64,000 nucleotides of DNA from Agrococcus sediminis (lineage in GTDB: Bacteria; Actinomycetota; Actinomycetes; Actinomycetales; Microbacteriaceae), in assembly GCF_007923295.1 (NCBI RefSeq), contig NZ_VOIR01000016.1, positions 62,001 through 126,000 on the forward strand. Reading direction: 5' to 3'. Made by a program: the position numbers and the translations under genes. This document shows, one piece after another, positions 28,880 through 34,519 of this stretch. The notes beneath the pieces are model-generated. The model saw only the letters and a list, made by a program, of their open reading frames with translations, ran no database searches and was not told where the DNA came from. Within the stretch, counting starts at the first letter, position 1. Every line of letters starts with the position of its first letter.

Positions 28880-29352
28880 CGCTCCTCCTCCGCGTCGACG
28901 GCGTGCGCCTGATCCTCGCGCAGGGCCCGGATGGCGGCCTCGAAGTCGTCGAGCGAGTCGAAGGCGTTGTAGACGCTCGCGAACCGCAGGTAGGCCACCT
29001 CGTCGAGCTCGCGCAGCGGCGGCAGCACCGCGAGGCCGATCTCGTTCGCGTCGATCTGGCTCGCGCCGGTCGCGCGGATCGTCTCCTCGACCGCCTGCGC
29101 GACGCCGGCGAGGTCGGCGTCGGTGACGGGCCGGCCGCGCACGGCCTTCCGGACGCCCTCGATGACCTTCTCGCGGCGGAACGGCTCGAGCACGCCGGAG
29201 CGCTTCACGACCGACAGGCTCGCCGTCTCGGTGGTGGTGAAGCGGCGGCCGCACTCGGTGCACTGGCGCCGGCGGCGGATGGAGGTGCCGTCGTCGCTCG
29301 TGCGGGAGTCGACGACGCGGGAGTCGGGGTTGCGGCAGAAGGGGCAGTGCAT
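28876..29352 (-). CDS. nrdR: Transcriptional repressor NrdR
   Basis: Represses ribonucleotide reductase genes in response to ATP/dATP. The 158-residue protein has the zinc ribbon (Cys3, Cys6, Cys31, Cys34) followed by an ATP-cone domain (about 48-140, [19 protein letters not shown]). It sits between hisD and pyrD, overlapping hisD by one base and pyrD by four, so it is translated as part of a biosynthetic operon rather than with nrd genes, none of which is in this window. ATG at 29352. Confidence 0.96.
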
Positions 29353-30665
29353 CAGGCCTCCCCCGCCTCGAAGCGCGCCTCGATGGCCTCGCCGTGCGCG
29401 GGCAGGCCCTCGGCGGCGGCGAGCGCGACCACGTCGGCCCGCACCGCGGCGAGCGCCGCGCGGTCGTAGCGCACGACCTGCTGGGGGCGGAGGAACGTCG
29501 CGGCCCCGAGGCCGGCGACGCGCCGCGCCTGGCCGCCGGTCGGCAGCACGTGGTTGGAGCCGGCGGCGTAGTCGCCGAGGCTGACCGGCGTGTGCGCGCC
29601 GAGGAAGATCGCTCCGGCGTGGCGGATGCGTGCGAGCACGGCGTCGTCGTCGGCCGTCATGATCTCGAGGTGCTCGGGCGCGTACGCGTCGCTCACCCGC
29701 GCGGCGGCGTCCAGGTCGGCGACGAGCACGATCGCCGACTGCTCGCCCGCGAGCGAGGCGCCGACGCGGGCGCTCGCCGCCGTGGCGGCGGCGCGGCGCG
29801 CGACGGCCTCGTCGACGCGGTCGGCGAGCGCGGCGTCGTCGGTGACGAGCACGGCGCTCGCGAGCTCGTCGTGCTCGGCCTGGCTGACGAGATCGGCGGC
29901 GATGAGCTCGGCGTCGGCGGTGCCGTCGGCGATCACGAGGATCTCGGTGGGCCCAGCCTCCGAGTCGACGCGGACGCTGCCGGCGACCGCGCGCTTGGCC
30001 GCGGCGACGAAGACGTTGCCGGGGCCCGTGACGACGTCGACGGGTGCGAGCCCGATGCCGGGCACGCCGTGGGCGAAGGCGCCGACCGCGCCGGCGCCGC
30101 CCATCGCGTAGACCTCGTCGACGCCGAGCAGCGCGCACGCGGCGAGGATGGTCGGGTGCGGCAGCCCGTCGTGCTCGGCCTGCGCGGGGCTCGCGACGGC
30201 GATCGAGCGGACGCCGGCGGCCTGCGCGGCGACCACGTTCATGACGACGCTCGACGGGTAGACGGCCTTGCCGCCGGGCACGTACAGGCCGACGCGGTCG
30301 ACGGGCTGCCAGCGCAGCTCGACCGCGGCGCCCGGCGCGGGCTCGACGGCGGTCGGCGGCGGCACCTGCGCGGCGGAGCCGATCCGCACGCGCTCGATCG
30401 CGGTCTCGAGCGCCGCGCGCACCGCCGGGTCGAGCGCGGCGAGCGCCTCCTGGAGCGCGGCCGCGGGCACCCGCAGCTCGGCGGGGCGCACGCCGTCGAA
30501 GCGCTCGGCCTGCGCGGCCAGGGCCTCGGCGCCGCGCTCGCGCACGTCGGCGATGAGCTCCTGGGCGGCCGGCAGCGCGCGATCGACGTCGACGGCGGGT
30601 CGCGGCAGCAGCGCGCGCAGCTCGTGCTCGTCGGGCAGCGTCGTCAGGTCGAGTCGTCGGAGCAT
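29352..30665 (-). CDS. hisD: Histidinol dehydrogenase
   Basis: Catalyses the last two oxidation steps of histidine synthesis with NAD and zinc. The 437-residue protein shows [46 protein letters not shown], the metal-site SQAEHDE and YAPEHLEI, and [18 protein letters not shown] at 30665 is chosen because TACGAT (30678-30673) lies seven bases before it; the alternative ATG at 30674 overlaps that hexamer. First gene of hisD-nrdR-pyrD. No other his gene is nearby. The 20-bp repeat array lies just upstream. Confidence 0.95.
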
Positions 30666-30672
30666 GGCCTCC

Positions 30673-30678
30673 ATCGTA
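30673..30678 (-). promoter_or_regulatory. -10 element of a probable leaderless hisD transcript
   Basis: TACGAT on the minus strand, seven bases, then ATG at 30665. It lies about 60 bp from the edge of the repeat array. Confidence 0.45.
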
Positions 30679-30740
30679 CGGCGACGGCGCCGCGCCCGCC
30701 GCGCCCCGCTCCCCCTCCCCGCGCGCCGCGCGCGGCGATC

Positions 30741-31000
30741 GAGTGGCGCCTCCCAGCATCGAGTGGCGCGGCGCAACATCGAGTGGCGCCTCGCAGCATC
30801 GAGTGGCGCGGCGCAACATCGAGTGGCGCGGCGCAACATCGGATGGCGCCGCACGACATCGAGTGGCGCCGCCTGCGGTCGCCGCCACTCGATCGCGCGA
30901 GCCGCCACTCGATCACGCGAGGCGCCACTCGTTCTCCGGAGGCGCCACTCGTTCTCCGGAGGCGCCACTCGACCGCGGGAGGCGCCGCTCCAAGCGGGCG
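30741..31000. repeat. Thirteen-unit, 20-bp-period repeat array with inversion
   Basis: The 344-bp gap between dnaE and hisD is filled by units of exactly 20 bp. Seven units (30741-30880) start GAGTGGCGCC/G, followed by ten more variable bases, most often GCGCAACATC (three times). Then, with no spacer, six units (30881-31000) carry the reverse complement GGCGCCACTC/GCCGCCACTC; two of these are identical over all 20 bases. The core contains the palindrome GGCGCC. A period of 20 is not a multiple of three and every frame changes meaning, so it is not coding. The two halves could fold on each other. Confidence 0.93.
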
Positions 31001-31009
31001 GCGGGCGGA

Positions 31010-34000
31010 TCAGGCGATCGAGGCGGGGCCCAGCAGCGACTTGATCTCGCCGAAGAGGTCGCTCGAGACGCGCACCCGCTGCGGCAGCGAGAACACCCGC
31101 TCGACCTCCGGCCGCTCGAGCGCCAGGCGCACGTCGGTCGGCCCGGAGTGCCGCTCGAGCAGGCCGCGCAGCTCGCGCATGACCGTCATTGACGCGCGGC
31201 GCTCGGGGATGCGCAGCTCGAGCGGCCGCGTCTCGTCGACCGGCTGGACATCCGGCGTGTCGATGCTGTTCGCGTGCACCGTGAAGCCGTCGTCGCGCGT
31301 GCGCACCCGGCCCCGCACCACGACCACCTGGTCGGGCTGCAGGCTCGTGCGGAACTCCGTGTAGGACTTGCCGAGCACCATCACCTCGAGCTCGCCGCCG
31401 AAGTCCTGCAGCGCGAAGATGCCGTACTGGTTGCCGGAGTTGCGCGCGACGCGGTGCTGCACGCTCGTGATGAGGCCCGCGAGCGTGACGGTGTCGCCGT
31501 CCTCGGCGGTCTCGGCGAGGTCCTGGATCTGATGCGTCGCGTGCTTCGCGAGCTCGAGCTCGAGGCCCGCGAGCGGGTGGTCGGAGACGTACAGGCCGAG
31601 CATCTCGCGCTCGAACGCGAGCTTGTCGCGCTTGCCCCACTCCGGCCGGTCGGGCACCCGGTCGGCGACCGTGTCGAGGTCGTCGAAGATGTCGCCGAAG
31701 AGGTCGACCTGGCCGTTGGCCTCGTTGCGCTTGATCGAGACGGCCGCGTCGACCGCATCCTCGTGGATCTCGAGCATCGCGCGCCGCGTCGCCCCCTGGC
31801 TGTCGAAGGCGCCCGACTTGATGAGCGACTCGACGGTGCGCTTGTTGGCGACGCCGAGCGGCACCTTCTTCAGGAAGTCGTGGAACGACGTGTAGGCGCC
31901 CTCGCGCGTGCGCGCGGCGATGATGCCGTCGACCACGCCCTCGCCGACGTTGCGCACGGCGCCGAGGCCGAAGCGGATGTCGTCGCCGACGGCCGTGAAG
32001 TAGAGCGACGACTCGTTGACGTCGGGCGGCAGCACCGTGATGCCCATCCGCCGGCACTCCGACAGGTAGATCGCCATCTTGTCCTTGGAGTCGCCGACGC
32101 TCGTCAGCAGCGCCGCCATGTACTCGGCCGGGTAGTGGGCCTTCAGGTAGGCGGTCCAGTAGGAGATGACGCCGTAGGCGGCGGAGTGCGCCTTGTTGAA
32201 GGCGTAGTCGGAGAAGGGCAGCAGGATGTCCCACAGCGCCTTGACGGCGGCGGCCGAGTAGCCGCGCTCCCGCATGCCGCCGGAGAACGCCTCGAACTGC
32301 TTGTCGAGCTCGGCCTTCTTCTTCTTGCCCATCGCGCGCCGCAGGATGTCGGCCTGGCCGAGCGTGTAGCCGGCGACCTTCTGCGCGACCGCCATCACCT
32401 GCTCCTGGTAGATGATGAGGCCGTAGCTCTCGTCGAGGATGTCGGCGAGCGGCTCCTCGAGCTCGGGGTGGATGGGCGTGATCGGCTGCAGGCCGTTCTT
32501 GCGCAGCGCGTAGTTGGTGTGCGAGTCGGCGCCCATGGGGCCGGGCCGGTAGAGGGCGATGACGGCCGAGATGTCGCCGAACGAGTCGGGCTTCATGAGG
32601 CGCAGCAGCGAGCGCAGCGGTCCGCCGTCGAGCTGGAAGACGCCGAGCGTGTCGCCGCGGCCGAGCAGCTCGTACGCGCCGCGGTCGTCGAGCGGCAGGG
32701 TCTCGAGGTCGAGCTCCTCGCCGCGGTTGGCGCGGATGTTGTCGAGCGCGTCGGAGACGATCGTGAGGTTGCGCAGCCCCAGGAAGTCCATCTTGATGAG
32801 GCCGAGCGCCTCGCACGCGGGGTAGTCGAACTGCGTGATGATCGCGCCGTCCTGCTCGCGCTTCATGATCGGGATGATGTCGATGAGCGGCTCGGACGAC
32901 ATGATCACGCCCGCCGCGTGCACGCCCCACTGCCGCTTGAGATTCTCGAGCCCGCGGGCGGTCTCGAAGACGGTCTTCGCCTCGGCGTCGGTCTCGATGA
33001 GCGCGCGGAGGTCGCCGGCCTCCTTGTAGCGCTCGTGGGACGAGTCGAAGATGCCCGAGAGCGGGATGTCCTTGCCCATGACCGCGGGCGGCATCGCCTT
33101 CGTGAGCCGCTCGCCCATGCCGAACGGGAAGCCGAGCACGCGGGATGCGTCCTTCAGTGCCTGCTTGGACTTGATCGTGCCGTAGGTGACGATCTGGGCG
33201 ACGCGCTCCGAGCCGTACTTCTCGGTGACGTAGCGGATGACCTCGGGGCGGCGACGGTCGTCGAAGTCGATGTCGAAGTCGGGCATCGAGACGCGGTCGG
33301 GGTTGAGGAAGCGCTCGAAGATGAGGCCGTGCTCGAGCGGGTCGAGGTCGGTGATGCGCATCGCGTAGGCGGCCATGGAGCCGGCGCCGGAGCCGCGGCC
33401 GGGCCCCACGCGGATGCCGTTGTCCTTCGCCCAGTTGATGAAGTCGGCGACGACGAGGAAGTAGCCGGGGAACCCCATGTTCGAGATGACGTCCATCTCG
33501 TAGTTCGCCTGCTGCTGCACGCGCTCGGGGACGCCGCCCGGGTAGCGGCGCTCGAGGCCGACCGCGACCTCGTGGCGGAACCAGGTGTCCTCGGTGTGGC
33601 CCTCGGGCACGGGGTACCGGGGCATGTAGTTGGCCGACTCGTCGAACTCGACCGAGCAGCGCTCGGCGACGAGCAGGGTGTTGTCGCACGCGCCGTCGAG
33701 GTCGCGGAAGAGGTGGCGCATCTCGGCGGCCGACTTCACGTAGTAGCCGCCGCCCTCGAGCCGGAAGCGGTTCGGGTCGTCCATCGTGGAGCCGGACTGC
33801 ACGCACAGCAGCGCCTCGTGGCTCTTGGCGTCGGCGGCGTGCGTGTAGTGCAGGTCGTTGGTGGCCAGCAGCGGCAGTCCGAGCCGCTTGCCGATCTCGA
33901 GCAGCCCGTCGCGCACGCGGCGCTCGATCTCGAGCCCGTGGTCCATGATCTCGAGGAAGTAGCTCTCGGCGCCGAAGAGGTCGCGGTAGCTCGCCGCCGC

Positions 34001-34519
34001 ATCCATCGCGAGGTCGAACTGGCCGAGCCGCAAGCGGGTCTGCACCTCGCCGGAGGGGCAGCCGGTGGTCGCGATGAGGCCCTTCGCGTGCCGCTCGAGC
34101 AGCTCGCGGTCCATGCGCGGCTTGAAGTAGAAGCCCTCCATCGACGCGTAGGAGGAGAGGCGGAAGAGGTTGGCGAGCCCCTCGTTGCTCTCGGCCAGGA
34201 GCGTCATGTGCGTGTACGCGCCGCCGCCCGAGACGTCGTCGCCGGGCGCGGCGTCGCTGCCGCCCCACTTGACGCGCGTCTTGTCGGAGCGGTGGGTGCC
34301 GGGCGTGATGTACGCCTCGGTGCCGATGATGGGCTTGACGCCCTGCGCCTTCGCCGCGCGCCAGAACTCGTAGGCGCCGAACACGTTGCCGTGGTCGGTC
34401 ATCGCGACCGCCGGCATGCCCTCCTGCTGCACGGCCTGCATGAGCTCGGTGATGCGAGCTGCGCCGTCGAGCATGGAGTACTCGGTGTGGACGTGGAGGT
34501 GCGCGAAGGAGTCTGCCAT
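31010..34519 (-). CDS. dnaE: DNA polymerase III subunit alpha
   Basis: Replicative polymerase, 1169 residues, the usual DnaE1 length. The N-terminal PHP domain begins HLHVHTEYSMLDGAA; the polymerase active site has GPGRGSGAGSMAAYAM and PDFDIDFDDRRRPEV with the catalytic aspartates; EQVMAVAQKVAGYTLGQAD and KAHSAAYGVISY mark the fingers; an OB fold (VTLAGLITSVQHR) lies near residues 995-1070. ATG at 34519; TAGGAT at 34534-34529 is a likely -10. The repeat array starts 9 bases past its stop codon. Confidence 0.97.
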   Translation of the reverse strand: MADSFAHLHVHTEYSMLDGAARITELMQAVQQEGMPAVAMTDHGNVFGAYEFWRAAKAQGVKPIIGTEAYITPGTHRSDKTRVKWGGSDAAPGDDVSGGGAYTHMTLLAESNEGLANLFRLSSYASMEGFYFKPRMDRELLERHAKGLIATTGCPSGEVQTRLRLGQFDLAMDAAASYRDLFGAESYFLEIMDHGLEIERRVRDGLLEIGKRLGLPLLATNDLHYTHAADAKSHEALLCVQSGSTMDDPNRFRLEGGGYYVKSAAEMRHLFRDLDGACDNTLLVAERCSVEFDESANYMPRYPVPEGHTEDTWFRHEVAVGLERRYPGGVPERVQQQANYEMDVISNMGFPGYFLVVADFINWAKDNGIRVGPGRGSGAGSMAAYAMRITDLDPLEHGLIFERFLNPDRVSMPDFDIDFDDRRRPEVIRYVTEKYGSERVAQIVTYGTIKSKQALKDASRVLGFPFGMGERLTKAMPPAVMGKDIPLSGIFDSSHERYKEAGDLRALIETDAEAKTVFETARGLENLKRQWGVHAAGVIMSSEPLIDIIPIMKREQDGAIITQFDYPACEALGLIKMDFLGLRNLTIVSDALDNIRANRGEELDLETLPLDDRGAYELLGRGDTLGVFQLDGGPLRSLLRLMKPDSFGDISAVIALYRPGPMGADSHTNYALRKNGLQPITPIHPELEEPLADILDESYGLIIYQEQVMAVAQKVAGYTLGQADILRRAMGKKKKAELDKQFEAFSGGMRERGYSAAAVKALWDILLPFSDYAFNKAHSAAYGVISYWTAYLKAHYPAEYMAALLTSVGDSKDKMAIYLSECRRMGITVLPPDVNESSLYFTAVGDDIRFGLGAVRNVGEGVVDGIIAARTREGAYTSFHDFLKKVPLGVANKRTVESLIKSGAFDSQGATRRAMLEIHEDAVDAAVSIKRNEANGQVDLFGDIFDDLDTVADRVPDRPEWGKRDKLAFEREMLGLYVSDHPLAGLELELAKHATHQIQDLAETAEDGDTVTLAGLITSVQHRVARNSGNQYGIFALQDFGGELEVMVLGKSYTEFRTSLQPDQVVVVRGRVRTRDDGFTVHANSIDTPDVQPVDETRPLELRIPERRASMTVMRELRGLLERHSGPTDVRLALERPEVERVFSLPQRVRVSSDLFGEIKSLLGPASIA

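Follow-up and report, generated by a model that had tools for sequence, protein, structure and literature searches.

The closest described counterparts of the element reported here are the REP repeats and their RAYT genes. RAYT genes are reported to be always flanked by two inverted REPs, and typical REP copy numbers to be over 100 (PMC2817692); REPINs are described as hairpin-forming REP doublets (PMC3116915). On the protein side, AbiEi antitoxins of the type IV toxin-antitoxin system AbiE (COG5340) are reported to bend DNA and to bind, within their own promoter, 23-bp inverted repeats that occur as a pair (PMC7319586). The EDxHD homing endonuclease I-Bth0305I is reported to act on nearly 60 bp of target DNA in dimeric form (PMC3943268), and a further paper introduces the MTES_1575 Vsr-type domain as a HEPN fusion partner (PMC3710099). 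Both the paired-repeat binding of AbiEi and the dimer of I-Bth0305I suit recognition of paired inverted units. A literature search covering work other than subscription papers and preprints returned no report of hairpins bracketing DUF559/MTES_1575-type genes.

We analyzed a window of 64,000 nucleotides from Agrococcus sediminis that carries an array of inverted 20-bp repeats between dnaE and hisD. The array comprises 13 units without spacer, laid on a single grid (30741–31000), exactly as the initial annotation had read it. Its left arm (30741–30880, plus strand) consists of seven forward units starting at 30741, 30761, 30781, 30801, 30821, 30841 and 30861, with the core GAGTGGCGCC; its right arm (30881–31000, minus strand) contains six inverted units on the same grid, with cores starting at 30881, 30901, 30921, 30941, 30961 and 30981, the last ending at 30990. 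The exact reuse of variable parts claimed in that annotation is likewise present, with three occurrences of GCGCAACATC and two copies of one inverted unit. The core had been described as shared by every unit; a common core does exist, but it varies slightly, one forward core reading GGATGGCGCC and, on the other strand, two inverted cores reading GAGTGGCGGC and the last GAGCGGCGCC.

TRF analysis at period 20 assigned scores of 186 and 132 to the two halves, the top values among the 27 rows for the window. The array was the sole match to our general array model in the window at E ≤ 0.002; the model gave no second convincing array there, the next place outside the array having an E value of 0.16, and Rfam returned no match in 29000–33000. 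The 261-nt stretch spanning the whole element (30735–30995) folded into a single long, imperfect hairpin with z-scores of −9.48 as RNA and −9.56 as DNA, and 0 of 200 shuffles folded as well, in agreement with the proposal that the two halves could form a long stem in either nucleic acid. The 3′ end of dnaE (31010–34519, minus strand) lies 19 bp from the array, and hisD (29352–30665, minus strand), an open frame with a start codon, lies downstream of the array on the same strand; both genes are named from the initial annotation and their translations.

Searching the genome and its relatives for units at 20-bp spacing, as had been suggested, revealed a dispersed family. The exact pattern GAGTGGCGC-N11-GAGTGGCGC occurred 35 times forward and 21 times in reverse in the own genome, compared with 0 for the backwards control, and a two-unit pattern allowing up to two mismatches gave 52 forward and 40 reverse matches, compared with 1 and 1 when read backwards. 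The latter pattern defined 11 array loci: nine are two-armed, always forward then reverse, one is forward-only and one reverse-only; three isolated core matches lie outside arrays. Fixed unit length, another feature of the initial reading, extends to the whole family: 80 of 81 successive core spacings of up to 45 bp in the own genome equal 20 bp, the remaining one being 40 bp. At the Agrococcus loci that were fetched, spacings in distinct contexts number 655, of which 540 equal 20 bp, 35 equal 40 bp and 16 equal 21 bp. Variable parts recur inside a single arm, in keeping with local tandem amplification under a length constraint, as had been proposed. All 11 loci lie within about 60 bp of a gene 3′ end, the ten outside the window at 10–58 bp as judged with a crude gene caller, and no target-site duplication was recognized. 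In a set of 60 rows comprising the own genome, 23 genomes of the same genus and 36 of other genera, the exact pattern was found in 13 of the 23 and in none of the 36.

One of the 11 loci (C13:137887–139272) encloses a gene at C13:138085–138987 between arms about 1.1 kb apart, and the same bracketing is present at the orthologous place in two other Agrococcus genomes (G019 and G022). Because the arms also bracket this gene elsewhere in the genome, dnaE-hisD is one insertion site among many; the dispersed family and the bracketed gene had both escaped the initial annotation, which is supported in part. The gene sits between a polA-adjacent thioesterase gene and a pdtaR-like response regulator gene, named from their translations, and encodes a protein, P0001, of 301 residues as cut, with the start codon taken provisionally. 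Against Pfam, P0001 showed weak matches to MTES_1575 and DUF559, below the curated cut-offs; at E ≤ 0.01, each domain was matched in 23 of 24 family members. The AlphaFold model of P0001 (mean pLDDT 86.8) was compared with solved structures using Foldseek. The best match, and the sole one with E under 0.001, was the AbiEi antitoxin 6y8q (E 1.6e-4, but TM-scores 0.34 and 0.47 and rmsd 6.0); AbiEi is the closest solved fold, and an AbiEi-type winged helix in the N-terminal part is possible. The second was the catalytic domain of I-Bth0305I (3r3p_B; E 0.017, probability 1.00, target TM-score 0.73), placing the nuclease part in the EDxHD/Vsr-like fold class to which the weak Pfam matches also point.

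Residues E197, D229, E240, H246 and D255 are invariant across the 24 sequences and D242 is nearly so, and these conserved acidic and histidine residues suggest DNA cutting. From the model and these matches, P0001 is predicted to be an AbiEi-like DNA-binding part fused to a Vsr/I-Bth0305I-like nuclease (EDxHD, PD-(D/E)XK-related). Unlike AbiEi, it holds the predicted nuclease domain in its C-terminal part, and unlike free-standing homing endonucleases it is associated with no intron, intein or single homing site, its bracketing repeats recurring elsewhere. No DUF1814 toxin gene was seen beside the nuclease gene when translations at three loci were inspected by eye, the neighbors being thioesterase, polA and pdtaR. 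PADLOC gave weak matches only (best E 0.0064), and Transposase_17 (PF01797) was found neither in P0001 at E ≤ 1 nor in the 24 family members at E ≤ 0.01.

The arrays are associated with this gene across the genus. P0001 relatives were found at E 1e-10 in all 24 Agrococcus genomes, with a best match of 49–100% identity in 20 (in G006 as two pieces, 70 and 76% identical, split by a stop) and of merely 33–38% in the other four (G002, G003, G013 and G015). Scoring the best 150 candidates per genome with a model derived from 19 segments of three units each, taken from nine genomes, gave arrays of any core at E 0.001 in 20 of the 24 and zero in exactly those four that contain no close P0001 homolog; a strongly divergent core would escape this model. 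Among the array-less genomes, G003 is 78% and G015 86% complete; G010, counted as positive, gave just two weak matches (best E 5.7e-4) in an assembly that is 65% complete. Since arrays of the same kind are present in 20 of 24 genomes, including the single-contig G001, G006 and G012, the possibility of an assembly artefact, raised in the initial annotation, was rejected. In a tree of dnaE, whose orthologs are present in all 24 genomes, read without the G005 row, G003, G013 and G015 form a supported clade, whereas G002 falls in a supported clade with five carriers; gene and arrays are therefore jointly absent in two lineages. A label test of this absence on the same tree is weak, with 52 of 500 shuffles as low.

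In 18 of 24 genomes, the nuclease gene was detected no more than 1.5 kb from pdtaR. At threshold, arrays occupy both sides of the gene in 14 of these 18, one side in G017 and neither side in G008, G009 and G023. The gene was not detected at pdtaR-polA in G002, G003, G010, G013 and G015, and in G002 the gene-array unit is cleanly absent, pdtaR being followed directly by the thioesterase gene and polA. In G014, one contig ends within the array and the nuclease gene lies at the end of another (C5 and C7), so that the assembly breaks inside the gene-side array and draft genomes undercount arrays. G006 carries 46 array matches despite the stop interrupting its nuclease gene; arrays can therefore outlast the enzyme, as expected of relics.

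Other repeats were seen in this context. The pdtaR-polA site of G002 holds a lone hairpin (L325, around 2190–2260) unrelated in sequence to the arrays. At C1:172478–176353 (L090), the same genome encodes a distant paralog (38% identical; gene at 1501–2376) bracketed by another repeat family containing GGTACC and GTGTC words, and at locus L091 many 11-mers are common to both gene flanks.

In the dnaE-hisD gap, six of 24 genomes carry an array, with three core types among them: G000, G005, G014 and G022 have a GCG core, and G016 and G008 other cores. The remaining 18 have none, the gap shrinking to 18 bp in G001 and G010; in G003, G007 and G015, hisD was not located and the array was judged over the first 600 bp. 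The initial annotation had taken an aperiodic gap in close relatives as an argument against the element. Periodicity is indeed absent from the gap in these 18 genomes, yet the element itself stands, and we conclude that the site is optional rather than the element unreal. Other inserts occupy the gap in G006 and G007, and G011 perhaps retains one relic unit pair. In G019 (L206) and G007 (L216), the gap contains a different repeat with GGTCGAGGAGCGC, in tandem in G007.

Period-20 arrays flank the gene even where the core is not GAGTGGCGCC, with GANYGGYCR-type cores in G001, G020, G018, G011, G006, G021, G009 and G023. In a comparison of 16 genomes, ten have a GCG-type core at the gene and six a YCA-type core. 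Each of the ten carries 7–65 exact GAGTGGCGC pairs elsewhere, compared with 0, 0, 0, 1, 1 and 35 in the YCA-type genomes, where G020 with its 35 is the exception; G016 carries both core types. Sister genomes differ alike at the gene and genome-wide, with 43 such pairs elsewhere in G019, 0 in G018 and 1 in G011. Core type at the gene flank agrees with the rest of the genome in 15 of 16 cases at a cut-off of five pairs, 14 at eight and 13 at ten. With the gene's own arrays excluded, p ranges from 0.0014 to 0.035 by cut-off, and with them counted in it is 0.0076; because the genomes are related, these values overstate the case and are only indicative. No protein column tracks core type.

To extend the comparison beyond Agrococcus, we took the best 80 of 392 relatives in named genomes, which gave 67 loci outside the genus, or 62 after five with short flanks were dropped. 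Flanks of 300 bp were scored as sharing a repeat when they had at least three 12-mers in common, inverted or direct. Among these best 80 of 392 relatives, 33 of the 62 loci shared flanking repeats, compared with 6 of 265 other genes of the same loci, and the 33 span 22 of 32 taxon labels. The repeats are long hairpins of differing sequence. The other 29 of the 62 showed no shared flanking repeat by the 12-mer test, so the bracketing rule is not universal, and period-20 arrays were found at threshold beside none of the 62 genes.

In Jiangella ureilytica, one gene-bracketing hairpin is present at 19 places. Two paralogous genes are bracketed by four of them, and ten of the other fifteen were fetched and show no gene of this kind close by. 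A hairpin of Isoptericola variabilis recurs at nine places, of which two bracket the gene and four of the other seven were fetched and lack it. An Isoptericola stretch (G061 C433:3974 and 5483; L248) holds two hairpin copies 1.5 kb apart, with no nuclease-profile match in the fetched sequence. We also considered GGTCGAGTAG and its relatives, which we take to be a known Microbacteriaceae-type repeat word; such words were not meaningfully enriched beside the genes, one of them occurring once near and three times far and the others never near.

As in REP/RAYT systems, an enzyme gene is bracketed by inverted repeats with many intergenic copies elsewhere; hairpin-forming doublets and head-to-tail clusters recur in both systems, as probably do repeats that differ by gene lineage (PMC2817692, PMC3116915). 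Inverted flanking is represented by the 14 two-sided pdtaR-polA genes and the inward-facing arms of the nine two-armed arrays, and intergenic copies elsewhere by the 11 own loci, of which ten contain no nuclease gene. The differences lie in the parts. The REP/RAYT enzyme is an HUH/Y1 transposase, whereas here it is predicted to be a Vsr/EDxHD-like nuclease joined to an AbiEi-like part. A REP repeat is one GC-rich palindrome preceded by a GT(A/G)G head, whereas the Agrococcus arms are tandem 20-bp units, and the aligned units, which read GANYGG..., lack that head. Copy numbers are also below those of REP, with 11 loci here and 19 and nine places in the two other genomes. With no Transposase_17 match and no GT(A/G)G head, membership fails on the enzyme, and the system would be REP/RAYT-like in its working.

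We consider it fairly probable that the dnaE-hisD array is a gene-less copy of a REP-like element family built on an unrelated predicted nuclease. The arrays, the orientation of their arms, the 20-bp constraint, the bracketing of the gene and the joint presence or absence of gene and arrays are direct observations, as are the presence and absence of arrays at orthologous sites and the hairpins that bracket related genes outside Agrococcus; from these we infer that the predicted nuclease binds, cuts, expands and spreads the repeats. The element consists of two arms of tandem 20-bp units that face inward. The protein would bind their cores in phase along one helix face, and to this extent the window array is, as first proposed, a plausible candidate protein-binding array. 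The protein might then cut or nick the bound cores. Repair from another unit would let an arm grow or shrink in exact 20-bp steps, and repair or copying from another locus could set the hairpin element down at further sites, chiefly next to gene 3′ ends, where little harm would follow. In a broader form, to which we give even chances, this would be a second, independent REP system, in which Vsr/EDxHD nucleases with an AbiEi-like DNA-binding part both make and spread, across Actinobacteria, the hairpins that bracket them, and the Agrococcus hairpin grew into tandem 20-bp arms whose length is set by enzyme packing on DNA.

The alternative that survives best, though we regard it as unlikely, is that the host uses the arrays as regulatory or architectural sites, with an AbiEi-like regulator coating the phased cores, the nuclease fold secondary and the bracketing a form of autoregulation. 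AbiEi is the top structural match of P0001, AbiEi is reported to bind inverted repeats in its own promoter (PMC7319586), and the strict 20-bp phase would suit one-face binding. However, all 11 own arrays lie beside gene 3′ ends, arrays come and go among species, as the six of 24 at dnaE-hisD illustrate, the catalytic-looking residues of P0001 are invariant, and for an operator a second array beyond the gene would be superfluous.

REP elements at gene 3′ ends are known to end or protect transcripts. The Agrococcus arrays, with their very stable fold and their position beside gene 3′ ends, might likewise act as RNA stems, their spread being incidental. We hold this to be improbable, as it leaves unexplained why a nuclease gene is bracketed, why gene and arrays are absent together, why the unit is exactly 20 bp and why the same bracketing occurs in other genera with unrelated repeat sequences. 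Stability would need no tandem units. Ordinary slippage minisatellites with the nuclease gene among them by chance, in line with unit numbers that vary among species and variable parts mostly shared within one arm, are more improbable still and already disfavored, as the two inward-facing arms, the dispersed one-core copies and the link to the gene all go unexplained.

On the REP-like reading, this family seems to be a counterpart, not described before, of the REP repeats that accompany a dedicated copying enzyme in other bacteria. To our knowledge, the origin and spread of REP-type repeats have so far been tied to HUH transposases. A REP-type nuclease of unrelated fold, if confirmed, would mean that repeat-making by a bracketed enzyme evolved more than once. 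The Agrococcus arrays, with their fixed 20-bp step and species-specific cores, offer a ready substrate for binding and cutting assays, and, if the reading is true, many unexplained DUF559/MTES_1575-type genes in Actinobacteria would gain a testable job.
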